64,000 nucleotides of DNA. Origin: an uncultured Lachnospiraceae bacterium. GTDB taxonomy: Bacteria > Bacillota > Clostridia > Lachnospirales > Lachnospiraceae. Below are positions 1,712 through 26,914 of this stretch, piece by piece. The notes beneath the pieces are model-generated. The model did not search any database. It saw nothing but the letters and a program-made list of their open reading frames with translations, and was not told the origin of the DNA. Within the stretch, counting starts at the first letter, position 1. The number at the start of each line of letters is the position of its first letter. The position numbers and the translations under genes are program-made. The DNA lies in assembly GCA_945919075.1 (NCBI GenBank), contig CAMEIX010000002.1, positions 62,001 through 126,000 of the forward strand, in the 5' to 3' direction.

Positions 1712-4700
1712 TTGAACAAGTTTATTTTACGGAAAGAGAAAGAAAAAGAAAAAAGGAAATACTATCGGGAAAAAGTGGAATATCTTATCATGATGTTCGC
1801 ATTTATCGCATTGAATCTTTTGGGAAGAATCATTGTCTCAGCCTTTCGGTTACCTTTCTGGCTGGACATGGTGGGGACAGTTCTGGCCTCCTGTTATCTA
1901 AGTATTCTCGGATGTATCATTGTGGCAGCAACCCCTAATATTCTGTTTGGAATATGGGATCCCGTTACCATGGTCTACGCCTTGACGAGTGTAGAGGTGG
2001 TTCTGGCACTTTACTATCTGCAAAAGAAAAACATGATGAATGTATTGCCGAAAGCAGTGGGGTTTAGCATTCTGATCGGTATATTAAGTGTGATTGTGTC
2101 CACCCCTTTAAATCTGTTATTCCATGACGGATACTCCGGGAATATCTGGGGAGATGCACTGGTGGATATGCTGAAATGGATGCAGATGCCTCTTGTTGTG
2201 TGCACAACGGCAGGAGAACTGGTAGTAGAAATTGTGGATAAGCAGATTTCCGTTCTGTTAGCTTATGTGATTATGCAGGCGGTTCGCAAAAGAAAGAAGA
2301 ATCCGGACAGGATAAAAACTTTGTATTTCTTTTTGCCGCTTGTTTTTTCGGCATGGATTTTGCTTTCCGAGAGTATGGCGGTGCGGGCATCGGAAAATGG
2401 TTCGGATATTTATGTAGGTAAGATTTTTGATAATACCAATGGGATTATGTCCAGTGAGGCAAATTATATCGGAGAATCAAATGACGGTTATCTCTGGATT
2501 GGAAGCTATGCCGGACTTACCAGATACGACGGCAATCGTTTTGAATTTATAAAAGACGGTGGAATTACCGGTGTCAAATCCATTTATAATGATTCCAAAG
2601 GCAGAATCTGGATTGGAACCAATGACAGCGGTGTTGTTCGTTTTGACGGCAATGAAAGAAAACAATTTAGAGAAGAAGAGGGACTTGCCGAAAGTTTTAT
2701 CTGTTGTTTTGCGGAATCGGATGATGGGGATATGTATGTCGGTACCATCAATAATTTATACCGGATTGATGCAGAGGATCATGTATACAGGGTGGAGGAA
2801 GATATCTCCTACGCCAAGACTTTAGTCTGGTCGGGGGATTGCCTGCTTGGCGTGGAAAAGAATGGAGAAATATTCTGCCTTGGAGAAAATGGTTTATATA
2901 AGGGGAAAAACGGTATTGTGGACTATACCTGTGTGAGCATGGCAGGAAATGTTGTCCTGGCAGCGGATAAAGCAGGGAAAGTAGGAATCATTACAGTATC
3001 TGACGGGATTCCCCGGTTTCGTCTTCTTGCATATACCAGAGTCATGGATATCACTTCCCTGTGTGAGGACCGAAATGGGAACATCTGGTTATGCGGACAA
3101 AGTGAGATGGGTTATATTGACAAAGGAGGAGACTATCATTCTTTCAAGATTCGGGGCTTTGATTCTTCCTTTGAGTGCATTCATGCAGATTATCAGGGGA
3201 ATATATGGGTTGCCTCTTCCCGGTGCGGTATTTTGAAAATTACAAAGAGTATGTTTGGAGATCTGTTCAATCTGGCGGGAGTAACTCCCAATGTTGCCAA
3301 TGCCGTTACGGAATATGAGGGACTTTTATATTGTGCAACGGACAGCGGGATCGTGGTACTGGGGGAGGATGGACAGATTATCAAAGAAAATCCGCTTTCC
3401 CGGTATTTAGAAGAAAAACGGGTACGGTGCTTCTTTGTGGATTCTTTAAACCGGTTATGGGCATGTACTTATGGCGAATATGGCCTGATCTGTTATGAGA
3501 GTGACGGAACCATTACCAGTTTTAACACTTCAAACAGCGGTATTACCTCCGACAGAATCCGGTGTATGATGGAGCTAAAGAATGGGACGTTAGCTGTAGG
3601 CACCACATCCGGGCTTAACTTCCTGAAAAATGGAAAGGTTACCTTTACCCTGACGGGAAAAGACGGCCTGGAAAATGATCAGATTCTTTCTCTCTGGGAG
3701 GATGAGGAGCAGACTTTATATGTGGGAACGGACGGTGCCGGAATTTATCTGGTAAAGGATGGAAAAATAAAGGGCCGTTACTCTACCGGGGAAGGCCTGA
3801 CCTCCAATGTTATTCTCCGTATGGTACCTTATGATGGTGGATTGCTCGTAGTAACCAGTAATTCGTTATGTTACATAAAGGAAAAACAGGTAAGAGTACT
3901 GGAGAATTTTCCTTACTTTAATAATTTTGATGTTCTGATCCGGGATAATACGCTCTATGTATTGTCAAGCGCAGGCATTTTTGTGGTGGACGGACAAAAA
4001 CTGCTCTCCGGTGAGGAGGTCACTTATCGTCAGTACAATGTTTCAGAAGGACTCCCCATGGGACTTACGGCAAACTCCTGGAATATGATTAAGGAGGACA
4101 GGCTGCTCATATGTGGGAATAATGGGGTGATTTCCTTCCGTATGGAAAGTAAGGAGAAGGACATTGCCATTCATTATGATCTGGAAAAGGTTCTCTGTGA
4201 CGGAGAACCGGTAGAGGAAAAGAATGGCCGGTACGAAATACCAGCCGGTGCAAGGCAAATTGTTATTACGCCATCCATCCGGCACTATCTGCCTGAAAAC
4301 GTGAAGGCACGGGTCTATCTGGAAGGGATGGATACGACACCGGTACTGCTTGATTTTGATGAATTGGAAACCCTGACGTACTCCAATCTTTCCTATGGAA
4401 ATTATAAACTTCATTTTGAAATCTATAACAGTGCGGGAGATACCCTTCTTGACGAGAAGGTATATACTTTTGAAAAGAAACCGCAAATGTGGGAGCATTG
4501 GTGGTACAAGCTATATCTGATTGTCATTGTTATAGAGGTGATTGCCTTTATCACATGGGCATTCTTTCTTATCGGGAATATGTCCAAGCAGAAGAAGCGT
4601 CTGGAAGAATTGCGGAAGGAACTGGAAGAACAGCTGGATGACCGGATGAGAGAGATTCTGAATCAGAAGGAGAATTCCGATCAGCTTTTAAGACAGGTGG

Positions 4701-5626
4701 TGCAGTCATTAAGTGCTACCGTGGATGCCAAGGACCGCTATACAAGCGGACATTCCGAAAGGGTTGCGGAGTATTCCAAGATGCTGGCACAGAAGATGGG
4801 TAAGGATGAAACAGAACAGGAGACCATCTATTTTGCCGGATTGTTGCATGATGTAGGAAAAATCCGTGTGCCGGACGAAATTATTAACAAAACAGGTCGT
4901 CTGGATCAGAAAGAGTTTGACTTTATCAAACTGCATCCTGTAGCCGGTTATCATATTTTGAAAGATATCTCGGGCAACCGGAAGTTCTCGGAGGGGGCGA
5001 GGTTTCACCATGAGCGCTACGACGGAACCGGATATCCAAGCGGCCTGTCGGGGAAAAATATTCCGGAAATTGCGCGAATTATTGGCGTTGCCGATGCTTA
5101 TGATGCTATGACAAGCAGCCGTAGTTACAGAAAGGCTCTGCCGCAGCAGGTGGTTCGGGAAGAGATTGAGAAGGGAAAAGGTACCCAGTTTGATCCGGAA
5201 ATTGCAGATATTATGCTGGACATGATTGACAACGATCCGGAATACAAAATGAAGCAGGCCGATGAAGGAGATAAGAATATCCTTGTGGTGGACGATGAGC
5301 CCATGAATGCAAAGATGGTTCGTTTTATCTTAAAGGAAGAAAAGAACTACTGTATTCTGAGTGCAGAAAATGCGAATGATGCCATGGATATTCTGGGGCA
5401 GAACCAGGTGGATCTGATTTTGCTTGATATTGAGATGCCTGAGATGAATGGTTTTGATGCTTTGGTTATGATTCGGGAAAGGTATCAGATTCCGGTCGTA
5501 TTCATGACCGGCAACAAAGACCTGGAATCTATCCAGAGAGCAGAAAGCATGGGGGTCGACGATTATGTTACCAAACCTCTTTCTCCCCAGGCATTGCAGG
5601 AAGTAATTCATAGTATTTTGAAATAA
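1712..5626 (+). CDS. Membrane propeller sensor with HD-GYP and receiver domains
   Basis: A 1304-residue protein with this order: lysine-rich start; about six membrane segments (residues 25-220); an extracytoplasmic two-component-regulator propeller with at least nine W-I-G / Y-V-G type blades (about 245-780); a Y_Y_Y-like domain (about 830-925); one membrane helix (about 932-957); a coiled coil; an HD-GYP domain with H1046-D1047, H1099-H1100-E1101 and DGTGYP at 1104-1109; and a C-terminal receiver with acceptor Asp1239. HD-GYP proteins hydrolyse cyclic-di-GMP, and all expected motifs are intact. The receiver after the HD-GYP suggests control by phosphorylation from the downstream Hpt and hybrid kinase as well as by an outside ligand. 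TTG start, with GAGG at 1698-1701 ten bases upstream. I know no named gene for this architecture. Confidence 0.85.
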   Translation: MNKFILRKEKEKEKRKYYREKVEYLIMMFAFIALNLLGRIIVSAFRLPFWLDMVGTVLASCYLSILGCIIVAATPNILFGIWDPVTMVYALTSVEVVLALYYLQKKNMMNVLPKAVGFSILIGILSVIVSTPLNLLFHDGYSGNIWGDALVDMLKWMQMPLVVCTTAGELVVEIVDKQISVLLAYVIMQAVRKRKKNPDRIKTLYFFLPLVFSAWILLSESMAVRASENGSDIYVGKIFDNTNGIMSSEANYIGESNDGYLWIGSYAGLTRYDGNRFEFIKDGGITGVKSIYNDSKGRIWIGTNDSGVVRFDGNERKQFREEEGLAESFICCFAESDDGDMYVGTINNLYRIDAEDHVYRVEEDISYAKTLVWSGDCLLGVEKNGEIFCLGENGLYKGKNGIVDYTCVSMAGNVVLAADKAGKVGIITVSDGIPRFRLLAYTRVMDITSLCEDRNGNIWLCGQSEMGYIDKGGDYHSFKIRGFDSSFECIHADYQGNIWVASSRCGILKITKSMFGDLFNLAGVTPNVANAVTEYEGLLYCATDSGIVVLGEDGQIIKENPLSRYLEEKRVRCFFVDSLNRLWACTYGEYGLICYESDGTITSFNTSNSGITSDRIRCMMELKNGTLAVGTTSGLNFLKNGKVTFTLTGKDGLENDQILSLWEDEEQTLYVGTDGAGIYLVKDGKIKGRYSTGEGLTSNVILRMVPYDGGLLVVTSNSLCYIKEKQVRVLENFPYFNNFDVLIRDNTLYVLSSAGIFVVDGQKLLSGEEVTYRQYNVSEGLPMGLTANSWNMIKEDRLLICGNNGVISFRMESKEKDIAIHYDLEKVLCDGEPVEEKNGRYEIPAGARQIVITPSIRHYLPENVKARVYLEGMDTTPVLLDFDELETLTYSNLSYGNYKLHFEIYNSAGDTLLDEKVYTFEKKPQMWEHWWYKLYLIVIVIEVIAFITWAFFLIGNMSKQKKRLEELRKELEEQLDDRMREILNQKENSDQLLRQVVQSLSATVDAKDRYTSGHSERVAEYSKMLAQKMGKDETEQETIYFAGLLHDVGKIRVPDEIINKTGRLDQKEFDFIKLHPVAGYHILKDISGNRKFSEGARFHHERYDGTGYPSGLSGKNIPEIARIIGVADAYDAMTSSRSYRKALPQQVVREEIEKGKGTQFDPEIADIMLDMIDNDPEYKMKQADEGDKNILVVDDEPMNAKMVRFILKEEKNYCILSAENANDAMDILGQNQVDLILLDIEMPEMNGFDALVMIRERYQIPVVFMTGNKDLESIQRAESMGVDDYVTKPLSPQALQEVIHSILK

Positions 5627-5636
5627 GGAGGCATGG

Positions 5637-6008
5637 ATGATGAGTAACACACAAGATTGTATTATGAAATTGAGGGAGCAGATTCCCGGAATTGATATTG
5701 AACAGGCACTTGTTTTCTGCATGGGAAGTGAAGAGTTTTATCTGGAAGTTTTAGGTGATTACTGCAATAGTGGAAGAGTGAGTAAATTAGATGATTATTT
5801 TAATCAGAAGGATTGGGATAATTACCGGGTTGAAGTACATGGATTAAAAAGTACTTCCAGGACAGTAGGCCTTATGGAACTGGGAAGCGCCGCAGAAAAA
5901 CTGGAAATGGCCTGTAAAGAGGGTAATTTTGCTTATGTGGAAGAAAATCATCTGTCTTTTGCAGCACAGGTATGTGAAATAATGGAAACCATTAAAGGCT
6001 GCATTTAG
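5637..6008 (+). CDS. Stand-alone Hpt phosphotransfer protein
   Basis: A 123-residue, all-helical protein with the Hpt signature VHGLKSTSRTVG; the phospho-accepting histidine is His68. Hpt proteins shuttle phosphate between receiver domains. It lies ten bases after the HD-GYP/receiver gene and in the same transcription direction as a hybrid kinase 2.2 kb further on. The natural inferred path is kinase receiver Asp627 to this His68 to receiver Asp1239. AAGGAG at 5625-5630 serves ATG 5637, or the adjacent ATG at 5640. An ATG at 5633 in another frame stops after four codons and is ignored. Confidence 0.85.
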   Translation: MMSNTQDCIMKLREQIPGIDIEQALVFCMGSEEFYLEVLGDYCNSGRVSKLDDYFNQKDWDNYRVEVHGLKSTSRTVGLMELGSAAEKLEMACKEGNFAYVEENHLSFAAQVCEIMETIKGCI

Positions 6009-6019
6009 AGGGGATAAGA

Positions 6020-7117
6020 ATGAAAAAATTATCGATTTGGGGCGGAATTGTTCTGGTTATTCTGGTTGTAGGTATGTTTTTTATCAGACAGCGTAAGGTG
6101 GATACAGACATTACCTCCAAACAGACGAAGGTAGGTATGGTTCTGATTGGTGAAAAAGAAGACCATAGCTGGGGACAGTCTCATTACGAAGGGATGGAAA
6201 AGAGTGCAAAAGAATTAAATCTTCTGGTTGAATATGAGGAGTGTGTTCCGGAAAATGAAGAATGCATCCAGGTTATGGAAGAGATGATAGAGGATGGGTG
6301 TAAGATTATCTGTTGCAATTCTTTTGGATATGAACCATATATTGAAGAAGTGGCACAACGGCATCCGGATATTTATTTCTTTCATGCCACCGGAGTAACC
6401 ACCGCACATAATTTGTCCACTTACTTTGGCAGGATTTACCAGATGAGATATCTAAGCGGGATTGTGGCCGGACTTCAGACCAAAACCAATGAATTAGGAT
6501 ATGTGGCGGCCTTTAATATGTCCGAAGTAAATCGAGGAATTAATGCATTTACGTTAGGGGCTAAGAGTGTCAATCCGGACATTACGGTACACGTTTCTTT
6601 TATCAATTCCTGGCTGGATGATGAAAAGACAGAGGAGATTACCAACGAACTTTTGGAAGCACATCCGGAGATTGATGTCATCGCCATGCACACGGACTCA
6701 TTAAAAGCTTTGGAAATCGCGGAAGAGAGGGGAATCTGGTCCATTGGATATAATGTGGATAACAGCAAATTGTTTCCCGATACCTATCTTACGGCACCGG
6801 TATGGAATTGGGATAGCTTTTACACCCCCTATATTTTGTCCTGCCTGCAGGGGAAGTTTACGCAGAATAATTACTGGCTTGGGGCTGAAACAGGAGTAGT
6901 CAGGCTCGCTCCGTTTACCGATAATGTAAATCCAAAGGCAAAAGGAGCGGTGGAGGATGCCTATTTAAAATTAAAGAGCGGATCTTTTGATGTGTTTTAC
7001 GGCCCTATAAAGGATAATACCGGAGTAATACGGGTGGAAGCCGGCGAATGTATGGCAGACGAAACACTTCTGAATGAATTTGACTGGTTCGTGGAAGGAG
7101 TGGAGATTGATGAATAA
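6020..7117 (+). CDS. Membrane-anchored BMP-family (PnrA-like) binding protein 1
   Basis: A 365-residue protein with an N-terminal hydrophobic anchor (residues 4-22) and a BMP-family periplasmic-binding fold: SEVNRGINAFTLGA in the middle and the C-terminal FYGPIKDNTGVIRVEAGE-type ending. BMP/PnrA proteins normally capture purine nucleosides for an ABC transporter. Unlike typical members it has no lipobox cysteine after the hydrophobic stretch, so it probably stays tethered by an uncleaved helix. No ABC permease or ATPase gene is nearby; the neighbours are an Hpt protein and a hybrid kinase, which suggests sensing rather than uptake. Its stop overlaps the start of its paralogue by eight bases. 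The ligand is unknown. Confidence 0.82.
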   Translation: MKKLSIWGGIVLVILVVGMFFIRQRKVDTDITSKQTKVGMVLIGEKEDHSWGQSHYEGMEKSAKELNLLVEYEECVPENEECIQVMEEMIEDGCKIICCNSFGYEPYIEEVAQRHPDIYFFHATGVTTAHNLSTYFGRIYQMRYLSGIVAGLQTKTNELGYVAAFNMSEVNRGINAFTLGAKSVNPDITVHVSFINSWLDDEKTEEITNELLEAHPEIDVIAMHTDSLKALEIAEERGIWSIGYNVDNSKLFPDTYLTAPVWNWDSFYTPYILSCLQGKFTQNNYWLGAETGVVRLAPFTDNVNPKAKGAVEDAYLKLKSGSFDVFYGPIKDNTGVIRVEAGECMADETLLNEFDWFVEGVEIDE

Positions 7118-8219
7118 TGTAAATAGAAAAAGAATTGTGTCATTAGTGGTGGTATTTCTGACACTCGGAATGATACTCGTACTGCTTCTAAGTAGTAATC
7201 TGTTTCGTAATAATAATAACAGAATTAAAATAGGTTATGTCATGACGGGCAGTGCTTCTGAGGGTGGCTGGAACGGAATGAATTACGAAGGCATAAAAGG
7301 GGCCTGTGAACAAAGTGGTGTGGAACTGATCATAATTGAAAACATTCCGGAATATACAGGAGAATGCTCTAAGACCGTACAGGAACTGGTAGAAAAAGAT
7401 GCGGAAGTGATTTTTTTGAGCAGTTTTAATTACGCAGATGAAATAGCGGATGTTATCAGAGAGAATCCGGAAATACAATTTTATGCCAGTGCTTCCGGTA
7501 ATGTACAGGAAAAAAATCTCAGTGTTTATTTCCCACGTATGTATCAGGCAAGATACTTATCCGGAATGATAGCAGGAGCGACTACTAAGAGTAATGTGAT
7601 AGGTTACGTTGCCGCTATGGATAACAGTGAAGTAAACCGTGGTATCAATGCCTTTACATTAGGGGTATTAAGAGCAAACCCCAATGCGAGCGTAGTGGTT
7701 TATTTTACCGGTGACTGGAATAATGAAGCGGTGGAGAAAGAAGCGGCAGACATTTTGGTAAGGGAAGAGGGTGCGGATGTTTTAACGTATCATCAGAATC
7801 TTGCCTATGTTGTAGAAGAGGCAGATAAGTTAGGAGTCTGGTCCATTTCCTATCATATTGACGGCACCGGAATGTCGGATAAATGTCTGACCGGAGTGGT
7901 CTGTGACTGGCAGTGCCTGTATCAGGAAATTATTAAGGATTACCTGAATGGGAAAAACATGGAAAATAATCTTGTCTGGCTTGGCATTGACAGACATGTG
8001 GTTGACCTGAGCGGTTATGGAAAAGATGTGTCGGAAGAAAATATCGCCATGGTGGAAAAGGCGAAGACCGAGCTGATTGGAGGAAAAGAAGTTTTTTCGG
8101 ATGAAATTATAGATAATGCCGGTAATGTAAGATGCAATAAAGGAGAAATGATTTCAGACTCTTATTTGATGGATGAAATGACCTGGTTTGTGAGAGGGGT
8201 AAGAATTTATGAAAAATAA
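7110..8219 (+). CDS. Membrane-anchored BMP-family (PnrA-like) binding protein 2
   Basis: A 369-residue paralogue of the preceding gene, sharing the SEVNRGINAFTLG block and the WFVRGV-type end, so the pair looks like an old tandem duplication. Residues 10-28 form a hydrophobic anchor and no lipobox cysteine follows. The ATG at 7110 is chosen because AAGGAG lies at 7095-7100 and the start overlaps the previous stop (ATGAATAA); a longer frame from 7074 would lie inside the previous gene without a better site. The stop overlaps the kinase start by 11 bases, so the three are translationally coupled. Probably a ligand-binding partner of that kinase (inference from position only). Confidence 0.82.
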   Translation: MNNVNRKRIVSLVVVFLTLGMILVLLLSSNLFRNNNNRIKIGYVMTGSASEGGWNGMNYEGIKGACEQSGVELIIIENIPEYTGECSKTVQELVEKDAEVIFLSSFNYADEIADVIRENPEIQFYASASGNVQEKNLSVYFPRMYQARYLSGMIAGATTKSNVIGYVAAMDNSEVNRGINAFTLGVLRANPNASVVVYFTGDWNNEAVEKEAADILVREEGADVLTYHQNLAYVVEEADKLGVWSISYHIDGTGMSDKCLTGVVCDWQCLYQEIIKDYLNGKNMENNLVWLGIDRHVVDLSGYGKDVSEENIAMVEKAKTELIGGKEVFSDEIIDNAGNVRCNKGEMISDSYLMDEMTWFVRGVRIYEK

Positions 8220-10308
8220 ACTTCTTGACCGAAAACATTTAATCTATGGAGTTTTGTTGCTTATTCTTTCCCTCTTTGTCATAGGTTTTCTGCTTGCCAG
8301 AAAAATGAACAGTATGATTACAAATTATATTTGTGATATGATTACCGAACAAGCAGCCACCATGACGAAGCTGGAAAATGAGTATTTTGAGTCGGAGTAT
8401 CGACAGCTTTCAGAAATTGCGGTATATCTGGAGGACGTTGTAGAAGAGGAAGAGAAAGTAAAAGAAAGGGCACAGGTTCTTTTTGAAGCCAATATGGAAG
8501 CAGGTGTGGAAAAAGGAGTATTGACACTGGACGGTCAGGCAATTTTGGGAAAGGCCTTATCCGTTGAAGACTTTATATGCATTAAAAATGCCTTTCAGGG
8601 ACATCATTCCATTGGTTACAAAGAGGGGGACGGGCTTTTGTTCTGTATGCCGGTTTTTAGAGGAAAAAATGTGAAATATGTTCTCTATTACCGGTATTTG
8701 CCTGATGAAGTACAAAAACGTTTTTCTACGGCAACATTTAAGGGAAAGGCTAATATTCTTATCGCCAATGAAAAGGATGAGGTAGTAGTAGCATCGGAAA
8801 ATGATGAAATCAATGCCGGGTTGATTGGGGAACTGCAGGATAACGGAATCATGATGGAACTCAGAAATCGCCTGAATGTTGCAACATCCGCAGCAAAGGC
8901 CGGAAAATGGAAGGGAAAAGACAGTATTTTTTTCCTGGCTGAAATCGGGGAAACGGATTTTTATATGATTGGACAGATGAATGAGGAGGATGTAGCGGAC
9001 GGAATTGACACGCTTATTGTCCTGGTTCTCTGGGTGTTCGGTCTGTTATTGGTATTGGTTGTCAGTGGAACGGTCTTTCTTTTCAGCATAGAAGGAAAAA
9101 TAACAGAAAGTGAGGCACTACGGGAGGCAAAGGAAGAAGCAGAACGTGCCAATGCCGCAAAAAGTGAATTTTTGTCCAATATGTCCCATGAAATCCGAAC
9201 GCCCATTAATGCGGTACTCGGAATGACGGAAATGATTTTAAAAGAATCCAAGGAAGAGCAGATTTTAGAGTATGCGGTATCGATTGACAGTGCCGGTAAT
9301 GCATTGCTTTCCATCATTAACGATGTTCTGGATCTTTCTAAAATAGAATCCGGTAAGATGGAAATTGTGGAATCCCAGTACGAATTTTATACGTTAATCA
9401 GTGACTGTTATCACATGGTATTAGACAGGGCAAAGAAGAAGAATCTGGAACTTAAGGTGAATTGTGATGAAACCATTCCTTCCAAAATGCATGGAGATAT
9501 GGTTCATATTCGGCAGATTCTGGTCAATTTCTTAACCAATGCGGTAAAATACACAAATGAAGGGTCTGTGGAATTTCGAATTAAAGGGGAATGTTGTGAA
9601 GATCTGTGCGCCCTGGCGTTTACAGTAAAGGATACAGGAATTGGTATCAAAAAGGAACATCTGGATAAATTGTTTGAAAAATTTGTGCGTGTTGAACTGA
9701 AGCGAAATCAGTCCGTTGAGGGAACCGGACTGGGACTTGCCATTACCCGCCAGCTTGCTGATCTTTTGGATGCACGGATTGAGGTGGAAAGTACCTATGG
9801 GGAAGGTTCCGAATTTACATTGTATATACAGCAGAAAATTGTAGACAATACTCCTGTGGGGAGAATGGAATTTGGTATTCACGATAACAAAGTGCTGCTT
9901 GCAAAGCAGAATGAAGAGCATTTTGAGGCACCCGGCAAGAGAATTCTGGTTGTGGATGATGTAGAAATGAACCTGAAAGTTTTCGGTTTTCTTTTGAAAA
10001 ACAGTAAGATGGAAATTGATAAGGCGACCAGTGGACAACAGTGCATTGATTTGATTCGTAAAAACACTTATGATATGATTTTTATGGACCATATGATGCC
10101 GGAGATGGATGGTATCGAAACTTTTGAGTACATGAAAAAAATGGAGGATAACCAGAGCAAAACAACGCCTGTTATTATGCTGACAGCAAATGCTACAGCA
10201 GGAGTAAAAGAACAATACATGGCATGCGGATTTACGGATTACCTGTCCAAACCTGTTAAGGGAGAACAATTAGAACAGGTACTGATAAAATATATGAAAA
10301 TGGGTTAA
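8209..10308 (+). CDS. Hybrid histidine kinase with C-terminal receiver
   Basis: A 699-residue inner-membrane kinase: helix at about 12-31, extracytoplasmic region 32-270 of no family I recognise, second helix at about 272-293, coiled linker, HisKA with His327 (SNMSHEIRTPINAV), HATPase_c with N, G1 (DTGIGI) and G2 (GTGLGLAI) boxes, and a receiver with acceptor Asp627 (MDHMMPEMDG). All catalytic motifs are present. The gene overlaps the upstream BMP gene and ends at a strong terminator, closing the cluster. Known for the family: autophosphorylation on His, transfer to its own Asp, then to an Hpt protein. Inferred: BMP proteins supply the stimulus, and the Hpt and HD-GYP/receiver proteins are the outputs. 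Confidence 0.88.
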   Translation: MKNKLLDRKHLIYGVLLLILSLFVIGFLLARKMNSMITNYICDMITEQAATMTKLENEYFESEYRQLSEIAVYLEDVVEEEEKVKERAQVLFEANMEAGVEKGVLTLDGQAILGKALSVEDFICIKNAFQGHHSIGYKEGDGLLFCMPVFRGKNVKYVLYYRYLPDEVQKRFSTATFKGKANILIANEKDEVVVASENDEINAGLIGELQDNGIMMELRNRLNVATSAAKAGKWKGKDSIFFLAEIGETDFYMIGQMNEEDVADGIDTLIVLVLWVFGLLLVLVVSGTVFLFSIEGKITESEALREAKEEAERANAAKSEFLSNMSHEIRTPINAVLGMTEMILKESKEEQILEYAVSIDSAGNALLSIINDVLDLSKIESGKMEIVESQYEFYTLISDCYHMVLDRAKKKNLELKVNCDETIPSKMHGDMVHIRQILVNFLTNAVKYTNEGSVEFRIKGECCEDLCALAFTVKDTGIGIKKEHLDKLFEKFVRVELKRNQSVEGTGLGLAITRQLADLLDARIEVESTYGEGSEFTLYIQQKIVDNTPVGRMEFGIHDNKVLLAKQNEEHFEAPGKRILVVDDVEMNLKVFGFLLKNSKMEIDKATSGQQCIDLIRKNTYDMIFMDHMMPEMDGIETFEYMKKMEDNQSKTTPVIMLTANATAGVKEQYMACGFTDYLSKPVKGEQLEQVLIKYMKMG

Positions 10309-10311
10309 AAG

Positions 10312-10340
10312 AAAAATGACCGGAAGTCCGGTCATTTTTT
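10312..10340. terminator. Bidirectional intrinsic terminator
   Basis: A perfect 12-bp stem (10312-10323 with 10328-10339, loop AAGT) is flanked by A and T runs, so it can stop transcription on both strands. It lies between the convergent kinase gene and the DAHP synthase gene. Confidence 0.85.
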
Positions 10341-17028: not shown

Positions 17029-18084
17029 ATGTTATCAATTGACGAAATATTACAGGTTGCCATTGAAGCAGGCGCCAGCGATGTCCATCTGACAGTAAAT
17101 GTGCCTCCTGTTATGCGTGTGCATGGTAGATTACAGGCATTAAATCATCCTGTGCTGATGCCGGATGATACATTGGCAATAGCAAAACAGATTACCAGTC
17201 CCAGCCAGTGGCAGGTTTTTGAGGAAAAGGGCGAAAACGACTTATCCTATTCCATGGCAAATTATGCACGTTTCCGTGTAAATATCTTTAAGCAGAGAGG
17301 ATCCGTGGCACTTGCACTTCGTCTTGTAGGTACCGATATTCCGACCCCTGAAAAACTGGGTATTCCGCAGTCCGTAGTAGACCTTCATACACGTAAAAGA
17401 GGATTGATTCTTGTAACCGGACCTACCGGTTCCGGTAAGTCCACCACACTTGCTGCTCTGATTGATAAGATTAACAGCAGCCGTGATGCACATATTATCA
17501 CGCTGGAGGACCCGATTGAGTACATGCATCATCACAAAATGTCCATCGTAAACCAGCGAGAAGTGGGCTCCGATACCGGTAACTACGCAAATGCACTTCG
17601 TGCTGCACTGCGTGAAGACCCGGATGTTATTCTGGTAGGAGAAATGCGTGACCTGGAAACCATCAGTATTGCCATTACGGCTGCAGAAACAGGTCACCTG
17701 GTATTGTCCACATTACATACCATTGGTGCGGCAGCTACCGTAGACCGTATCATTGACGTTTTCCCTCCCTATGAGCAGCAGCAGATTCGTATTCAGCTTG
17801 CCAGCGTATTAGAAGGTATTGTATCCCAGCAGCTTATTCCTACCTCTGACGGGCAGGGCCGTGTAGCTGCATTTGAGGTACTGCATTGTATTCATGCGGC
17901 ACGTAACCTGATACGTGAGAGTAAGAGCTATCAGCTCCCCAATATCATGCAGACAAACCGTAAGATGGGTATGATGACTATGGATGACGCCATTGTCCAG
18001 TTATACTTCGACGGTGTGATTGACAGGGATATGGCAATTCAGTACGCACAGGCTCCGGAAAATATGCTGGAAAAATTGTTCTAA
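17029..18084 (+). CDS. pilT: Type IV pilus retraction ATPase PilT
   Basis: A 351-residue hexameric secretion ATPase of the PilT branch: N-terminal PAS-like region, Walker A with Lys137 (GPTGSGKSTT), Asp box EDPIEY, Walker B in REDPDVILVGEMRD, and the AETGHLVLSTLHT histidine box. PilT disassembles pilin subunits at the inner membrane and powers pilus retraction and twitching. It lies outside the pil operon, directly behind tpiA, and is cut off from pilB by a strong terminator, so assembly and retraction ATPases are transcribed separately. AGGAGAGGG before the ATG is a good site. GEMRD in place of the usual GELRD is a minor variant. Confidence 0.95.
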   Translation: MLSIDEILQVAIEAGASDVHLTVNVPPVMRVHGRLQALNHPVLMPDDTLAIAKQITSPSQWQVFEEKGENDLSYSMANYARFRVNIFKQRGSVALALRLVGTDIPTPEKLGIPQSVVDLHTRKRGLILVTGPTGSGKSTTLAALIDKINSSRDAHIITLEDPIEYMHHHKMSIVNQREVGSDTGNYANALRAALREDPDVILVGEMRDLETISIAITAAETGHLVLSTLHTIGAAATVDRIIDVFPPYEQQQIRIQLASVLEGIVSQQLIPTSDGQGRVAAFEVLHCIHAARNLIRESKSYQLPNIMQTNRKMGMMTMDDAIVQLYFDGVIDRDMAIQYAQAPENMLEKLF

Positions 18085-18133
18085 ATTTATCTGCTTTAGA
18101 ATATTTTTATATTTGTAAAGCGGATGTAAAATG

Positions 18134-18173
18134 AAAAACACACTTGCTTTCCCCAAAAAGTGAGTGTGTTTTT
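18134..18173 (+). terminator. Terminator after pilT
   Basis: An 11-bp perfect stem (18134-18144 with 18163-18173) whose 3' arm ends in TTTTT. Confidence 0.85.
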
Positions 18174-18225
18174 ACAAATTTTGAATATTTTGTTAATTTT
18201 TTATGTATAATTTTACTAAAAAGGG

Positions 18226-18254
18226 TTGCAAATTGGACATAAAATGGTTACAAT
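18226..18254 (+). promoter_or_regulatory. Promoter of the pil operon
   Basis: TTGCAA (18226-18231), a 17-base spacer and TACAAT (18249-18254). The predicted leader is only about 35 bases, too short for a cyclic-di-GMP riboswitch such as those reported before some clostridial pilus operons. Confidence 0.7.
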
Positions 18255-18295
18255 GTAAATGAGAAATTGACTAAATGCGTTTAAGGTAGGTAGAC

Positions 18296-19990
18296 ATGAG
18301 CAGATATACTGGAAAGAAGATTCGTCTCGGTGAAGCTCTTGTTCTCAGTAATGCAATTACAGAAGAACAGTTACAGAGTGCATTGGAGGAACAGAAAGCA
18401 TCCGGTAAAAAACTGGGTGAGTTGTTGATTGAAAAGAATTTAATTACGGAAGATTTAATCGCACAGATATTAAGTGCACAGCTTGGTTATCCGATAATTG
18501 ATTTAGCAAATATTTCTATTTCCCCCGAAGTACAGTCGTTAGTTTCTTCTTCTGTACTGAAAAAATCCATGGTTCTTCCTTTGGAATATGCAGAAGATAA
18601 CATGAACATTCTTCGTGTTGCCATGGCAGATCCTTTGGACATTAATGCAATGGATGACATTTCCATTATTACAGGTTGTCAGGTAGAACCTCTGATTGCC
18701 ACTCCAAGAAGTGTCATGCTTGCGATTGACCGAATCTATGGCTCTGATGAAGTAAATTCCGCACTGGAAGAGTACGCGAAGGAAAGATTCGGTAACGAAG
18801 AGGAAGATGATTCCATCAATGAGGACATCAACAATTCCCCTATCGTAGTTCTGGTTAAGGAAATGATTGAAAAAGCTGCACGTCAGCGTTCTTCCGATAT
18901 ACATATTGAACCGATGGAGCGTTCGGTTCGCGTCCGTTATCGTATTGACGGTGCCTTGTATGAAAAAGGCAAATACGATATCAAAATTATGCCGGCTTTG
19001 TCAGCTCGTATTAAGATTATCGGCGGAATGGATATTTCCGAAAAGCGTAAACCTCAGGATGGTCGTATTACCCAGATGGTAGACCGTACCGAGTATGATA
19101 TCCGTGTATCTGTACTTCCTACAGTATACGGTGAGAAAATCGTTATGCGTCTTGCATCCAAGACCGCACTTAACAGAGAGAAGAGTCAGCTTGGTCTGAA
19201 GCCGGAAGAAATGGCCCGCTTCGACCACATTCTGAAAAACCCACACGGTATTTTGCTTGTTACCGGTCCTACCGGTTCCGGTAAGTCCACAACTCTTTAT
19301 ACCGCACTGAGTGAGTTGAATACAGAATATGTTAATATTATTACCGTTGAAGACCCTGTCGAAGCAAATATTGATGGTATCAACCAGGTACATGTTAATC
19401 CGAAAGCGGATTTGACCTTTGCAAGTGCACTGCGTTCCATCTTACGTCAGGACCCGGATATCATCATGATCGGTGAAATCCGTGACCAGGAGACGGCGAG
19501 CATCGCGGTACAGGCTTCTATCACCGGTCACTTGGTTGTAAGTACTTTGCATACCAACTCTTCCGCAAGTACCATTACCCGTCTTGCGGACATGGGTATT
19601 GAACCATACCTGATTGCAGACTCCATTGTAGGCGTTATTGCACAGCGACTTGTCCGTAGACTCTGCCCCGCATGTAAAGAGGCAAGACTTGCAGACGAAG
19701 AAGAAAAGGAAATCATGAACTGCAAGCCGGATGAAGAGGTTACTATTTATGAGCCTAAAGGTTGCTTCCAGTGTGATAACATGGGTTACAAGGGACGAAT
19801 CGGTGTTTATGAAATTATGGAGATGACTCCTGCACTGAAACGAATTATCAGTAAGGAAGGAAATGCGGAAGAAATTAAGGAACAGGCTATCGCGGATGGC
19901 ATGAATACCCTGCGTATGAGTGCTACCAAACTGGTATTGGAGGGTGTCACCTCATATAATGAAATGATGAAGGTATCATTCGATATCTAA
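18296..19990 (+). CDS. pilB: Type IV pilus assembly ATPase PilB
   Basis: A 564-residue GspE/PilB ATPase that drives pilin polymerisation. An N-terminal MshEN-like region has two RLGE / KLGE repeats (residues about 10-65), followed by the N2 domain, Walker A GPTGSGKSTT, EDPVEA, RQDPDIIMIGEIRD and GHLVVSTLHT, and a four-cysteine zinc element (CPAC and CFQC). MshEN domains of this type bind cyclic-di-GMP in some PilB and MshE proteins, so direct control is possible but not proven here. The Shine-Dalgarno AAGGTAGG is weak. First gene of the pil operon; pilC follows after 12 bases. Confidence 0.95.
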   Translation: MSRYTGKKIRLGEALVLSNAITEEQLQSALEEQKASGKKLGELLIEKNLITEDLIAQILSAQLGYPIIDLANISISPEVQSLVSSSVLKKSMVLPLEYAEDNMNILRVAMADPLDINAMDDISIITGCQVEPLIATPRSVMLAIDRIYGSDEVNSALEEYAKERFGNEEEDDSINEDINNSPIVVLVKEMIEKAARQRSSDIHIEPMERSVRVRYRIDGALYEKGKYDIKIMPALSARIKIIGGMDISEKRKPQDGRITQMVDRTEYDIRVSVLPTVYGEKIVMRLASKTALNREKSQLGLKPEEMARFDHILKNPHGILLVTGPTGSGKSTTLYTALSELNTEYVNIITVEDPVEANIDGINQVHVNPKADLTFASALRSILRQDPDIIMIGEIRDQETASIAVQASITGHLVVSTLHTNSSASTITRLADMGIEPYLIADSIVGVIAQRLVRRLCPACKEARLADEEEKEIMNCKPDEEVTIYEPKGCFQCDNMGYKGRIGVYEIMEMTPALKRIISKEGNAEEIKEQAIADGMNTLRMSATKLVLEGVTSYNEMMKVSFDI

Positions 19991-20002
19991 TAAGGAGGCT
20001 AC

Positions 20003-21217
20003 ATGGCAAGTTACGGCTACGAGGCATTGAATGGTGCCAACAAACAAGTTAAGGGCAGCGTTGAGGCTGACAATATTGAAATTGCTAGACAAGAGTTAAA
20101 GAAACAGGGCTATCAGGTTATCAGCATCAAACCACAGTCCATGTTAAGTAAGGATATCAACATTAAGGTGGGCGGTTGGCCCACACCCCGAGACATGAGC
20201 GTTTTCTGTAGACAGTTCGTCAGCATGACAAGAGCGGGTGTTACCATTTCGGAAGCACTGAAGATGCTATCCGAACAGACAGAAAATGACCGATTAAGAG
20301 AGGCTACCGAGGGCGTTCGCGTGAACGTGGAAAAGGGTGAAACTTTAGCACATTCCCTTTCCGCATATCCTAAGATTTTCCCTTCCCTGCTAATCAACAT
20401 GGTGGAAGCGGGAGAAGCATCCGGTAGTTTGGATGTGGCACTGGAACGAATGTCCACCCATTTCGAATCCTCTGCAAAGACTGCATCCCTGGTGAAAAAA
20501 GCCATGATTTACCCCATTGCGGTGTGCGTGGTTGCCCTTGCAGTAGTAGTAGTAATGCTGGTAGTGGTTATTCCTAACTACGCATCCATGTTTGAAGAGT
20601 TGGGAACAGATTTACCGGCGCTGACCAAAATGGTAAAGGCGGCCAGCGATTTCCTGATACAAAAGTGGTTCATTGTGGTGCCGTTAGTAATTGCTATCGT
20701 GGTAGCGGTAAAGATGTTTGCCAGCACCGATACGGGAATTCATTTCTTCCACAAACTGAAATTGACAATTCCCATGTTTAAGGTTTTGGAAATGAAAACC
20801 GCATCCTCCCAGATGGCACGTACCTTAAGTACCCTGATGGCAGCCGGTGTTCCCCTGGTGGAGGCCGTGGATATCGTATCCAATATCATGGGAAATGTAT
20901 ATTATAAAGAAGCACTGGTAGATGCCAAGAATGAAATCATCATCGGCCAGCCTCTTTCCAGACCCATTGAACAGTCCGGTCTTTTCCCTCCCATGGTTTA
21001 CCATATGATTCGTATCGGAGAGGAAACCGGTAATACCGAGGAAATGCTTTCCAAACTTGCGGATTACTACGACGAAGAAGTAGAAGCAGCAGTTGCAGCC
21101 TTCATGGCAGCGTTAGAGCCGGTCATCATCATCGTACTGGCAGGAATTGTTTTGGTTCTGGTTGGTGCATGTCTCTTACCCATGCTTACCATGTACGAAA
21201 CACTCAATAATATGTAA
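20003..21217 (+). CDS. pilC: Type IV pilus inner-membrane platform PilC
   Basis: A 404-residue GspF/PilC protein with two homologous cytoplasmic helical domains (about 65-190 and 265-390) and three membrane helices near residues 168-195, 218-238 and 372-395. FCRQFVSMTRAGVTISEAL and ARTLSTLMAAGVPLVEAV are the paired family signatures. It forms the base through which PilB rotates or adds pilins. Strong AAGGAGG before the ATG. Full length for the family. A small hairpin separates it from pilA. Confidence 0.95.
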   Translation: MASYGYEALNGANKQVKGSVEADNIEIARQELKKQGYQVISIKPQSMLSKDINIKVGGWPTPRDMSVFCRQFVSMTRAGVTISEALKMLSEQTENDRLREATEGVRVNVEKGETLAHSLSAYPKIFPSLLINMVEAGEASGSLDVALERMSTHFESSAKTASLVKKAMIYPIAVCVVALAVVVVMLVVVIPNYASMFEELGTDLPALTKMVKAASDFLIQKWFIVVPLVIAIVVAVKMFASTDTGIHFFHKLKLTIPMFKVLEMKTASSQMARTLSTLMAAGVPLVEAVDIVSNIMGNVYYKEALVDAKNEIIIGQPLSRPIEQSGLFPPMVYHMIRIGEETGNTEEMLSKLADYYDEEVEAAVAAFMAALEPVIIIVLAGIVLVLVGACLLPMLTMYETLNNM

Positions 21218-21227
21218 TGAATTAATT

Positions 21228-21251
21228 GATGAGGGGTAGGGCTCATCTTTT
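21228..21251 (+). terminator. Weak hairpin between pilC and pilA
   Basis: GATGAG (21228-21233) pairs with CTCATC (21242-21247), followed by TTTT. It may be a partial terminator or an RNA end that stabilises the major pilin message; no clear pilA promoter was found downstream. Confidence 0.35.
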
Positions 21252-21292
21252 AAGATAAAAATAATAGTACTATTAAAAAAGGAGAGAATAAT

Positions 21293-21661
21293 ATGAAAAA
21301 GGATAACAAAGGTTTTTCACTCGTTGAATTGATTATCGTTATTGCAATCATGGCAGTACTCGTAGGTCTTCTTGCACCTCAGTATCTGAAGTATGTATCT
21401 AACTCCAAGGTATCTACCGATATCTCCAATGCACAGGAAATTGCTACTGCAATTAATGTTGCATTCGCTGATGACAGTCTTACCAGCCTTGCTAATATGC
21501 CCGGTGGTGCAGGTAACTTCCCTGATTCCAAGTATGACAAGACCTTTACTTGGCTTGTAACCACAGATGACAATGGCGTTAACAAGATTACTCTTGGTGG
21601 TAAGGATATTTATCCTGATCCCAAGGCAGCTGGTGCTTACTATACCACATATCACAAATAA
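21293..21661 (+). CDS. pilA: Major type IV pilin
   Basis: A 122-residue type IVa-like prepilin. The short leader MKKDNKG is cleaved after Gly7, giving mature FSLVE with Glu at +5 and a hydrophobic helix (residues 8-30) for membrane storage and fibre packing. The globular part is small (about 85 residues) and has no cysteine, so the usual C-terminal disulphide loop is absent. The AGGAGAG site is good, and the codons resemble those of the glycolytic genes, which suggests high expression. Position between pilC and pilD and the short head make it the likely main subunit. Confidence 0.88.
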   Translation: MKKDNKGFSLVELIIVIAIMAVLVGLLAPQYLKYVSNSKVSTDISNAQEIATAINVAFADDSLTSLANMPGGAGNFPDSKYDKTFTWLVTTDDNGVNKITLGGKDIYPDPKAAGAYYTTYHK

Positions 21662-21690
21662 GTTTTACTATTTGAAAGGTTATTGCCTCC

Positions 21691-22464
21691 ATGGATAACA
21701 TCCCTACAATGTTACAGATAACTTTATATCTTTTAGTATTCCTTTATGGAATTGTAATCGGCAGTTTTATCAATGTTTTGACCATTCGCATTCCGCGAAA
21801 GGAAAACTTTATTAAAACCAGATCCCATTGTGATTCCTGTGGATATGAACTTAAATGGTATGATTTAATCCCTATCGTAAGTTATCTGAGCCTGGGTGGC
21901 AAATGCCGAAAATGTAAAACAAAGATTTCCGCTTCGCACCTCTATATGGAGGTGCTAAGCGGTATCCTTTATGTAATTGTTTTTTATGTAGCAGGCTTTT
22001 CAGTGGATTCTATTCTGATATGTCTGCTTAGCAGTGCGTTGTTGGCACTTAGTGTTATTGATTTTAAGACCTATGAAATTCCGGTTGGGTTTCAATGGGT
22101 AATTTTGGTGCTGGCGGTTGCAAGAACCGGTCTGGATTATCATAACTGGTTAAACCATGTGATTGGTTTTTTTGCAGTCAGCCTGTTTTTATACTTACTG
22201 TATATGGTAAGTAAAGGCGCCGCAATCGGCGGCGGTGATGTGAAACTGATGGCAGTCTGCGGACTGTTCCTCGGTTGGAAACTTGTACTATTTGCTTTTT
22301 TGGCAGGTTGTGTCGTGGGTTCTATAATCCATATAATACGTATGAAGCTTTCAGATGAAAGCCACGTGCTTGCCATGGGGCCTTATCTATCCATTGGAGT
22401 ATTTGTTGCTGCACTTTGGGGCGATAGGATATTATCATGGTATTTAGGAATATTGGGTATTTAA
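21691..22464 (+). CDS. pilD: Prepilin peptidase PilD
   Basis: A 257-residue polytopic membrane aspartyl protease that cleaves and often N-methylates prepilins. Seen: the N-terminal domain with two CxxC pairs (CDSC and CRKC) around WYDLIPIVSYL, then six or so helices with catalytic Asp residues in DFKTYEIP and GGGDVKL. Full length, so both the peptidase and methyltransferase regions are likely present. The ribosome site upstream (AAAGG) is modest. Processes the five prepilin-like products of this operon. Confidence 0.94.
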   Translation: MDNIPTMLQITLYLLVFLYGIVIGSFINVLTIRIPRKENFIKTRSHCDSCGYELKWYDLIPIVSYLSLGGKCRKCKTKISASHLYMEVLSGILYVIVFYVAGFSVDSILICLLSSALLALSVIDFKTYEIPVGFQWVILVLAVARTGLDYHNWLNHVIGFFAVSLFLYLLYMVSKGAAIGGGDVKLMAVCGLFLGWKLVLFAFLAGCVVGSIIHIIRMKLSDESHVLAMGPYLSIGVFVAALWGDRILSWYLGILGI

Positions 22465-22532
22465 TATTAAGAAATTAGATAAGAGTTTTCCTGTGGAATC
22501 ATTCATTTGGAAAGCGGCAGAAAGGAATATTT

Positions 22533-24200
22533 ATGGCAAAAATACTTGGCATTGAAATTGGTAGTTCCATAACACGTATTTGTGAAATGGATTACAAGAC
22601 CAAAAATCCGAAACTATATAAGTATGTATGTATCCCTACTCCGAACGGGGTTGTGGATGATGGATTCTTAAGTGAAAATGTGGAATTTTCTTTAGCACTT
22701 AAGAAGGCTTTAACTGATAATAAGATCACAACGAAGCAGGTAATTTTTTCAATCTCTTCTTCTAAGATTGTTACAAGAGAGGTTACCATTCCTGCTGTTA
22801 AGACGGCTCAGGTCGGAACTTATATCCGTGCAAATGCAACGGATTATTTCCCTATTGACCTGACCCTATATGAACTTGCCCATATTGTTTTGGGAGGATT
22901 TAAAGCAGAAGACGGTTCTGATAAACTCCGCGTTATGGTGATTGCGGCAAGTAAAGAACTGGTTGCCGGTTACTCCACACTTGCTTCTTCCTGCAACTTA
23001 AAACTTCAGGCAGTTGACTATGCCGGAAATTCGGTATTCCAGTTAATGAAGGAAGAGAATAACGGTGAGACGGAACTGATTGTAAAGGTGGAAGAAAATT
23101 CTACCATTGCATCCGTAATCAGCAACCGCAGTCTTGTTCTTCAGCGTAACCTTGCATTCGGTATTGACAGAGCAGTCAATGCCATGGTGGATGCACCGGA
23201 ATATGCCGAAGATAATTACGAAGCGGCTCTTGCTACCATGTGCAGAAGAGCCTGCGTGAAGGTGGTATTAAGCGAACGTACCAGAATGATTGAACCGGAA
23301 AGCTCTGCCGGCGAAAGTGAAGCCATGACAGAAGCACGCAGACGTATTACTGAGACCTTTACACAGATGATCAGTAATATTGCCCGTATCATCGAATTAC
23401 ATAACCAGAAAGATAAGGAAAATCCCATTTCCCAGATTACACTGGTAGGTGTGGGTAGTGAAGTGGTTGGGTTAAATAAATTGTTTACCAACGAACTTGG
23501 AATTCCCACGAGAGTAGTGAAAAATTTAAGAAGTGTTTCTTATTTCCACTCTGTGGATCAGGAAAGTATTGCAAAATATATTTCCTGTATCGGTGCTACC
23601 TTTGATCCGGTTAACCTGTTAAGTGAGGGAACCAAGCAGAAGGTTAAGACCACCGTCAACTATGCACAGCTTTCCTTATTGTTTGCTGTATTATTTATAA
23701 TTATCAATGCATTTTTGTGCTATAAAGCCATTCCACCTTACCTTGAGCAGCAGGAAAAGGAGACGGATTTAAAAGCGAAAGAAGCCGAATATGCTCCGGC
23801 AGAACCGATTTATCATCAGTACAACGATATGCTGGATTTCTATAATCAGGCAATTGTACTGGGAAATGTAATCAACCATCCGAATGACCAGTTAATTGCT
23901 TTCATGGAAGAACTGGAAAGCAAAATTTTGCAGTCTGCCTGCATACTGGAGTTTACTTCCATGGGGGATATGGCTGTTATTAAGTTCCAGGCAAACGATT
24001 ACGAAGAGGCAGCAAAGATAATTGAAACCATGCGTACCTTCAAGAGTCTCGCCAATGTAACTTCCTCTGAAATTATAGAAGTTAAGATTGAGGCAAGAGA
24101 AGCTACTGCAAATACAGAAGCTGTGGAAGCGTCCCAGCATGTAGAGTTTGAAGTGGTTTGCTACTATCTGGAACCTGCTATAAAAACAGGGAATAAATAA
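22533..24200 (+). CDS. pilM: PilM-PilN fusion pilus alignment protein
   Basis: A 555-residue protein. Residues 1-350 are PilM-like, an actin-fold cytoplasmic ATP binder (IEIGSSITRICEM at the start, VGVGSEVVGL near 310). They are followed by VNLLSE at 360-365, which matches the conserved INLLP peptide at the start of PilN, a membrane helix at about 379-398, and a 155-residue extracytoplasmic part with a coiled coil and PilN/GspL-like fold. In most species PilM and PilN are separate proteins that bind through exactly that peptide; here they are one chain. No separate pilN is present. pilO follows after 14 bases. Strong for PilM; the PilN half is assigned by position and motif. Confidence 0.85.
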   Translation: MAKILGIEIGSSITRICEMDYKTKNPKLYKYVCIPTPNGVVDDGFLSENVEFSLALKKALTDNKITTKQVIFSISSSKIVTREVTIPAVKTAQVGTYIRANATDYFPIDLTLYELAHIVLGGFKAEDGSDKLRVMVIAASKELVAGYSTLASSCNLKLQAVDYAGNSVFQLMKEENNGETELIVKVEENSTIASVISNRSLVLQRNLAFGIDRAVNAMVDAPEYAEDNYEAALATMCRRACVKVVLSERTRMIEPESSAGESEAMTEARRRITETFTQMISNIARIIELHNQKDKENPISQITLVGVGSEVVGLNKLFTNELGIPTRVVKNLRSVSYFHSVDQESIAKYISCIGATFDPVNLLSEGTKQKVKTTVNYAQLSLLFAVLFIIINAFLCYKAIPPYLEQQEKETDLKAKEAEYAPAEPIYHQYNDMLDFYNQAIVLGNVINHPNDQLIAFMEELESKILQSACILEFTSMGDMAVIKFQANDYEEAAKIIETMRTFKSLANVTSSEIIEVKIEAREATANTEAVEASQHVEFEVVCYYLEPAIKTGNK

Positions 24201-24214
24201 GGGGGAAACAGACA

Positions 24215-24946
24215 ATGAAGAATAAGCAGAAATCAATGATGACAATGGTCCTCCTGGCAGGAGTCCTGATAACCATTCTGGTTTATATGTATGTCTACAA
24301 TGAATTTAACAAAAAAACAGAGAATTTGAAAAACTCCAATGCAACCCTGCAGACCCGTGTGGATGAATTAAAAGAGTATTACGATGCTATGGAAGAGCAC
24401 AAGGAAGATATCAAGAAGATGACAGCAGAGATCGAAAAGAAGTTGGGTGTCTTCCCTGCCTATATAAGAGAAGAAGATGCGGTAGCACTTGCATTACAAC
24501 CTTTAAAGAAGCAGATCCTGATAGATTTTGAATCCATTGCCATGGGTAATAATGAGGTAATAGGTACCATCGATGCGGAAGTGGTACAGGCAGCAAAACT
24601 GGAAAAATACCAGGATAAAATCGAAATCTATGAAAAACTGGTTACCTATAGCAGTGTTACCACATACAGTGATTTAAAAGATGTTATTAAAATCTATAAT
24701 GCATACGGCGATGGTATGAACATTGATACGATTTCCTTCTTCAAAGTAGCAGATACCAATGTTCTGGAAGGTACTATCGATTGCAAGTTCTATTTTGCAA
24801 CCGGAACAGGTGCAAGCTATAAGGCACCTACTTTCAGCACTTATCCTGTAGGTTCTACCGATCTCTTTAAGGTGGTAGGTTCTGAAGAAGAAATTGATTA
24901 TTCCGTATTTGGCTTGGGTGAAGACGAAATCCCCGTTGTTGAATAA
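24215..24946 (+). CDS. pilO: PilO-like pilus alignment protein
   Basis: A 243-residue bitopic protein: a membrane helix at about 9-28, a coiled coil at 30-75 and an extracytoplasmic domain. This is the PilO/GspM layout, which with PilN forms the inner-membrane ring linking PilM to the fibre. Sequence similarity of PilO proteins is low and I see no diagnostic motif, so the call depends on order (after the PilMN fusion, before the minor pilins), size and topology. The C-terminal 45 residues beyond the usual core are acidic. GGGGGAAA precedes the ATG. Confidence 0.72.
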   Translation: MKNKQKSMMTMVLLAGVLITILVYMYVYNEFNKKTENLKNSNATLQTRVDELKEYYDAMEEHKEDIKKMTAEIEKKLGVFPAYIREEDAVALALQPLKKQILIDFESIAMGNNEVIGTIDAEVVQAAKLEKYQDKIEIYEKLVTYSSVTTYSDLKDVIKIYNAYGDGMNIDTISFFKVADTNVLEGTIDCKFYFATGTGASYKAPTFSTYPVGSTDLFKVVGSEEEIDYSVFGLGEDEIPVVE

Positions 24947-24969
24947 GTAACAGTATAAGGATTGATGAT

Positions 24970-26220: not shown

Positions 26221-26236
26221 TGATAGGGGAAGAGAG

Positions 26237-26905: not shown

Positions 26906-26914
26906 GGTGCAGGT

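Follow-up and report, generated by a model that had tools for sequence, protein, structure and literature searches.

A BMP protein pair and its hybrid kinase as a candidate purine-sensing phosphorelay in Lachnospiraceae

We analysed a stretch of 64,000 nucleotides (hereafter the window) from an uncultured Lachnospiraceae bacterium (assembly GCA_945919075.1, contig CAMEIX010000002.1, positions 62,001 to 126,000 of the forward strand), the genome of which comprises 3.0 Mb in 55 contigs and is 98.7% complete. The window contains a run of five consecutive plus-strand open reading frames (ORFs; 1712-5626, 5637-6008, 6020-7117, 7074-8219 and 8209-10308) that encode two BMP-family proteins, a hybrid histidine kinase, an Hpt protein and an HD-GYP protein. 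The first gene (1712-5626, TTG start) specifies a membrane protein of 1304 residues with a membrane domain resembling the S component of ECF (energy-coupling factor) transporters (residues 28-196; 1793-2299), a propeller, an HD-GYP domain (residues 1001-1164; 4712-5203) and a receiver (REC) domain (residues 1190-1299; 5279-5608), and is matched by the Pfam models Reg_prop, HD_5 and Response_reg. It is followed by a separate Hpt protein of 123 residues (5637-6008; Pfam Hpt) and by two anchored proteins, BMP1 (6020-7117, 365 residues) and BMP2 (7110-8219; longest ORF from 7074), which score 171.2 bits (3.3e-50) and 148.3 bits (3.2e-43) against the Pfam model Bmp, over its gathering score of 24.1. 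The fifth gene (8209-10308) encodes a hybrid histidine kinase of 699 residues made up of an outer sensor, HisKA, HATPase (Pfam HATPase_c) and a receiver (Response_reg), and a terminator-like hairpin of 13 pairs on the same strand (10311-10340, from a consensus scan only) closes the run.

BMP2 likely starts at the ATG at 7110, with GGAAGGAG upstream, and would then overlap BMP1 by 8 bases; 11 bases are shared between BMP2 and the kinase ORF. These overlaps are preceded by gaps of 10 and 11 bases, with purine-rich stretches resembling ribosome-binding sites. A promoter scan returned 24 matches where 23.1 were expected. All residues expected of a phosphorelay are present by motif: His327 (SHEIRTP) and Asp627 (FMDHMMPEMD) in the kinase, His68 (VHGLKS) in the Hpt protein and Asp1239 (LLDIEMPEMN) in the receiver of the HD-GYP protein. 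The latter also has an intact HD (at 1046) and HHExxDGxGYP motif (HHERYDGTGYP at 1099), which places it among the HD-GYP phosphodiesterases, with predicted hydrolysis. A preliminary description of this DNA had listed five consecutive genes with these domains, overlapping ends among three of them, a complete path His327 - Asp627 - His68 - Asp1239 and no permease or ATPase genes in the run, and on each of these points we arrive at the same picture. It had overlooked the ECF-S-like domain. This domain reaches 61.8 bits with NF045596, below the curated cut-off of 180, and on that score is a relative and not a member of the CD3073-type S components.

The association of BMP and kinase genes exceeds chance, whichever side the survey starts from. 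From the BMP side we searched a genome collection once, using seven aligned BMP1 sequences as query, and kept the best 80 of 410 relatives, so that these counts refer to the nearest relatives only. The BMP gene was called in 79 of the 80 loci, on which most locus counts are based; in the remaining one (L079) the BMP gene has an open frame that lost out to a longer ORF on the antisense strand in gene calling, and it is likewise followed by the kinase. Gene runs were defined as co-directional genes separated by no more than 300 bases, with at most four genes counted on each side, and domains were called with profiles built from single seeds, samples of which were checked with Pfam. As contig ends cut some runs, counts per run of cyclic di-GMP (c-di-GMP), receiver and ATP-binding cassette (ABC) genes are lower bounds. 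Two tandem BMP genes are present in 70 of the 79 loci and one in the other nine. In 76 loci a hybrid kinase gene encoding the same sensor comes next, and the remaining three contigs end 75 to 95 bases after the BMP gene. Gene junctions in these loci overlap almost throughout (142 of 146).

For the kinase side, we built a profile from 65 sensors, namely that of the window and 64 of the 76 having a kinase domain, near-duplicates and odd lengths being left out, and used it to search 299 genomes from the family and 398 from the phylum. It found 28 kinases at E 1.1e-45 or better, in at least 16 of the family genomes and at least six of the phylum genomes (the source genome is in both sets, and the counts are lower bounds since 5 to 7 candidates were scored per genome). 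A BMP gene lies directly upstream of all 28 kinases with this sensor and of none of 14 weaker sensor matches (E 1.6e-24 to 5.2e-16), 12 of which are fused to GGDEF; for the six of these 14 whose upstream genes were checked, those genes are unrelated to binding proteins.

Within the genus of the window, the tandem BMP pair occurs in 7 of 61 genomes. The BMP-BMP-kinase set spans many Lachnospiraceae genera and was also met in a second family of the phylum and in records labelled Fibrobacter. By title, most of the 80 records are metagenome assemblies from Lachnospiraceae, with four from Fibrobacter and a few from Oscillospiraceae, Ruminococcus or Ruminiclostridium. In all four Fibrobacter records (L086, L093, L104 and L123), a REC-HD-GYP gene lies upstream of the BMP1-BMP2-kinase cassette. 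L104 and L123, which are on longer contigs, have their neighbour genes in common, which suggests transfer between phyla, and the cassette has possibly moved in this way. We did not accept mere mis-binning as the explanation, given the 297-kb contig of L104 and the flanks that it has in common with L123; L086 and L093 are short contigs.

BMP genes are routinely annotated as transporter parts (in Pfam, as ABC transporter substrate-binding protein PnrA-like), and BMP1 and BMP2 could be the binding partners of a purine ABC transporter with its genes at another site, the kinase merely regulating purine use. Both belong to the Bmp family and have an intact purine pocket, and the genome does contain one BMP-type ABC operon. 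However, this operon has its own binding protein: the three BMP genes of the genome are BMP1, BMP2 and one encoding a lipoprotein, which stands before an ATPase gene and two permease genes. We found three BPD_transp_2 permease pairs in the genome, each with its own binding-protein gene, one being that for the BMP lipoprotein and the other two recognised by eye. The idea that BMP1 and BMP2 serve a BPD_transp_2 permease without a binding protein was therefore rejected, as no such permease was found in the genome, and the transporter elsewhere that, according to the preliminary description, would have spoken against its proposal did not emerge. Furthermore, a lipobox lipoprotein anchor is usual for the binding proteins of BMP-type transporters in Gram-positives, and a lipobox-like motif is seen in 1 of 78 BMP1 and 0 of 71 BMP2 proteins, all of which have a hydrophobic N-terminal stretch. 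ABC genes occur in a single run of the 79 (L057), and both are of the ABC_membrane exporter type. Thus, neither mark of a BMP-type ABC transporter, permease and ATPase genes or a lipobox anchor, is seen for BMP1 and BMP2, and we hold a role in transport to be very unlikely.

BMP proteins were also met in other settings. In five genomes of the window's genus (L036, L042, L043, L044 and L045), a single BMP lipoprotein gene directly precedes the gene of a chemoreceptor with sCache and methyl-accepting chemotaxis protein (MCP) domains, which suggests BMP-coupled chemotaxis; four of the lipoproteins were called by pattern and the fifth by eye, its called start being too early. Many genomes of the genus also encode proteins of about 640-690 residues (such as L016, 499-2436) with a C-terminal BMP domain and about 290 N-terminal residues without a Pfam match. 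They have no obvious signal peptide and are possibly cytoplasmic BMP regulators.

The nearest solved relatives of BMP1 are AtzT (6pi5) and 3s99 from Brucella, at about 36-37% identity, and the profile favours these two (247 and 246 bits) over PnrA (55 bits). We therefore rejected a nucleoside ligand as in PnrA/BmpD, and where nucleoside-like ligands had first been proposed, the match of the pocket to AtzT and 3s99 makes purine bases the likelier ligand. In the AtzT study, guanine is contacted by Y45, S97, F98 (backbone), E165, W194, N218 and N220, the dissociation constants are 110 nM (guanine) and 2.5 uM (adenine), and the adenine of 3s99 is described as modelled (PMC6834077). The aligned positions of BMP1 are W51, S101, F102, E169, W198, H224 and D226, the last two agreeing with 3s99 (H, D) and not with AtzT (N, N); BMP2 has the same pocket with N replacing D226. 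Assigning the labels BMP1 and BMP2 by profile, we find this difference to be general. The BMP1 pocket (n=78) has W in 74, S in 77, E, W and H in 78 each and then D in 75, and the BMP2 pocket (n=71) has W in 70, S in 71, E in 68, W and H in 71 each and then N in 67. The pocket is kept in the five MCP partners and in the one transport BMP. In nine BMP partners of ECF-S proteins, E, W and D are found in 9/9, H in 6/9 and S in 6/9, with a gap in the other three.

Beyond the kinase, the Hpt step is usually part of the cassette. Of the 72 kinase frames that are complete, 68 include Hpt as a fused domain (exceptions L077, L101, L102 and L108), and since Hpt is normally a domain of the cassette kinase, the separate Hpt protein of the window is a plausible partner for the window kinase. 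The best matches of this protein are a mixture of cassette kinases and other histidine kinase-receiver-Hpt (HK-REC-Hpt) proteins, and three loci (L059, L065 and L070) have a separate Hpt gene besides the fused one. In 46 of the 79 loci, the run contains an HD-GYP or GGDEF gene or the kinase is fused to such a domain (HD-GYP in the run in 34, GGDEF in 20, some loci having both), and nine further runs include receiver-containing genes without c-di-GMP domains. The neighbours comprise REC-HD-GYP, HD-GYP-REC, REC-GGDEF and other receiver genes. In L066, a single frame of 1842 residues joins the BMP-associated sensor and kinase to a receiver, followed by a second kinase, another receiver, an Hpt domain (24.3 bits, narrowly short of the Pfam cut-off of 24.6), a third receiver and HD-GYP. 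The earlier suggestion that the captured ligand controls c-di-GMP breakdown is borne out as far as the frequent presence of c-di-GMP genes goes, but breakdown is not always the output, as shown by the 20 loci with GGDEF.

The HD-GYP protein of the window has relatives of its own. A survey for the ECF-S-like domain gave 37 places in 138 same-genus genomes, from which we read all 23 frames of at least 1172 residues and, among the 14 shorter ones, L252. Thirteen of the 23 are ECF-S/propeller/HD-GYP proteins without a receiver, and in 12 of these (exception L199) a BMP gene follows directly, which links the two halves of the window's set independently and favours the reading given below. Eight, the window included, have the receiver, and six of the seven others adjoin a different HK-REC-Hpt gene. 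The last two (L197 and L251) are fusions of about 2000 residues with kinase domains. The exact five-gene set was seen in the window alone, because the receiver-bearing proteins adjoin other kinases elsewhere. Of the co-occurrence of five families that was to be looked for in relatives, the BMP-BMP-kinase part is conserved (76 of 79; 28 of 28), whereas the full set is not. The window is a composite joining two separately conserved modules, and on this same-genus reading we rejected conservation of the five genes as a unit. BMP and ECF-S/propeller/HD-GYP proteins are linked in more ways than one. As for the ECF-S-like domain itself (window 1793-2299; L187-L203 and L247-L252), it is found fused to propeller/HD-GYP, in an HD-GYP protein of 714 residues (L252) and in the kinases of about 2000 residues, and is apparently a recurrent signalling input domain.

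We believe that the five genes probably encode an extracytoplasmic purine-sensing phosphorelay leading from the BMP pair through the hybrid kinase and Hpt to the HD-GYP protein. BMP1 and BMP2, anchored outside the membrane by their N-terminal helices and not serving an ABC transporter, would bind purine bases and, by way of the outer sensor, modulate the activity of the neighbouring hybrid kinase. Within this kinase, phosphate would then move from His327 to Asp627, on to His68 of Hpt and from there to Asp1239 of the ECF-S/propeller/HD-GYP protein, where phosphorylation would change c-di-GMP breakdown. The proposal builds on features read from sequence, namely the domains and residues, the N-terminal hydrophobic helices without lipobox, the layout, the BMP-kinase pairing, the usual Hpt fusion and the conservation of the pocket; from these we infer the ligand, the contact between BMP proteins and kinase, the order of the phosphate steps and the sign of the output.

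Several observations weigh against this reading. The transport BMP of the source genome has an equally conserved pocket, and pocket conservation therefore supports purines and does not speak for sensing over transport. The sensor of the window has no credible match in Pfam, and a profile search of solved structures (PDB) with it gave a best E of 0.32. Among the 65 relatives' sensors, 25 are matched by dCache_1 when E values as loose as 1 are admitted (best 6.5e-7), the window not being one of them. LuxQ has a dCache-type sensor. Direct binding of purines by dCache domains is documented (PMC11245519). The kinase could then sense a ligand of its own through its outer domain, with the BMP proteins merely delivering, scavenging or buffering purines. 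The strict pairing argues otherwise, since a BMP gene lies directly upstream of all 28 kinases found with this sensor and of none of the weak homologues without a kinase, and we regard such a division of labour as quite unlikely.

On the output side, 33 of the 79 loci showed no c-di-GMP gene in their run, some of these runs ending at contig ends, so that HD-GYP is not an obligate output. In addition, the seven other receiver-bearing ECF-S/propeller/HD-GYP proteins have no BMP gene in the stretch read, and the combination of the window thus has no second instance. Together with the different HK-REC-Hpt gene that adjoins six of these seven, and the cassette that never does, this would suit a BMP-kinase sensor to which the HD-GYP-REC protein is a chance neighbour with its own kinase elsewhere. 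However, the window has a separate Hpt and no HK-REC-Hpt adjoining the HD-GYP protein, L066 fuses kinase and HD-GYP, and in a tree of 72 HD-GYP domains that of the window groups with those of cassettes. It falls within a set of 26 (support 100/96) formed by 18 HD-GYP-REC proteins of cassette loci (those of L097 and L113 being encoded on the opposite strand), seven ECF-S proteins, the window included, and a 7TM (seven-transmembrane) one of cassette L041, and the nine other HD-GYP domains of the source genome in the tree lie outside it. A chance neighbourhood is, in our judgement, rather unlikely.

The purine-sensing phosphorelay that we favour has known counterparts. LuxP-LuxQ-LuxU and TorT-TorS are phosphorelays in which a binding-protein gene lies beside a hybrid kinase gene, with an Hpt step following. 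The binding-protein genes of the window likewise adjoin a hybrid kinase gene, followed by an Hpt step, and by gene neighbourhood and by its hybrid kinase, receiver and Hpt the predicted system belongs to the class of binding-protein-activated phosphorelays of the LuxP-LuxQ-LuxU type. TorS, BarA and LuxQ are among the top NCBIfam models for the kinase core, none of them reaching its cut-off. Unlike in these systems, the receptors of the cassette are of the BMP family, usually two and anchored, Hpt is fused in most relatives and c-di-GMP enzymes are the likely output. A BMP fold outside a transporter is also seen in the third-best solved relative (2hqb, 138 bits), Med, a BMP-family regulator that activates comK; we know of no kinase or c-di-GMP partner of Med. 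Gene neighbourhood is a common feature of characterised binding-protein/kinase pairs, 10 of 11 being neighbours (PMC11113362). BMP1 shares the aromatic sandwich and the Ser and Glu contacts with AtzT and 3s99, but AtzT is thought to serve transport (PMC6834077), whereas BMP1 and BMP2 are without lipobox and permease partners. Extracytoplasmic purine sensing into kinases, cyclases, phosphodiesterases and chemoreceptors is described for dCache_1PU receptors, in which the receptor's own Cache domain binds the ligand (PMC11245519); in the cassette we propose a separate BMP protein as binder. Among the matches listed from the open-licence PubMed Central literature, none linked the BMP family to kinases, to HD-GYP proteins or to chemoreceptors.

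A BMP pair with a kinase, often together with c-di-GMP enzymes, looks like an undescribed route by which some gut bacteria sense nutrients and alter their behaviour. If this is true, many BMP proteins of gut and rumen bacteria would serve as sensory receptors, purine bases could be guessed as the signal for an entire family of kinases, and purine supply in the gut would be linked to behaviour controlled by c-di-GMP. A wider idea, doubtful but possible, is that BMP-fold proteins form a class of purine receptors that are dedicated and extracytoplasmic, with at least three outputs in these bacteria (hybrid-kinase relays, ECF-S/propeller/HD-GYP enzymes as direct partners, and sCache chemoreceptors), and that BMP1 and BMP2 compare two purines, e.g. 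adenine and guanine, on one kinase. One pocket of the pair carries D, like the structure modelled with adenine, and the other carries N, like the one with bound guanine.

The run is flanked on its 5' side by SpoIIM- and XerD-like genes, and the next gene on its 3' side is on the opposite strand. PilZ at four places in the source genome, its at least nine other HD-GYP-like proteins and the flagellar genes within the window (recognised by eye) make it plausible that the organism uses c-di-GMP; the physiological output of the relay is at present a guess. Between glycolytic and flagellar genes, the window also holds a type IV pilus-like set (17029-29500; PilT-, PilB-, PilC-, PilM- and pseudopilin-like ORFs, by eye). 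Two cassette loci, L059 (4945-8514) and L065 (5319-8462), contain large genes resembling those of coiled-coil surface proteins, 30% identical to each other and located between the separate Hpt gene and the REC-GGDEF gene of the cassette, and their products are a possible adhesin target.

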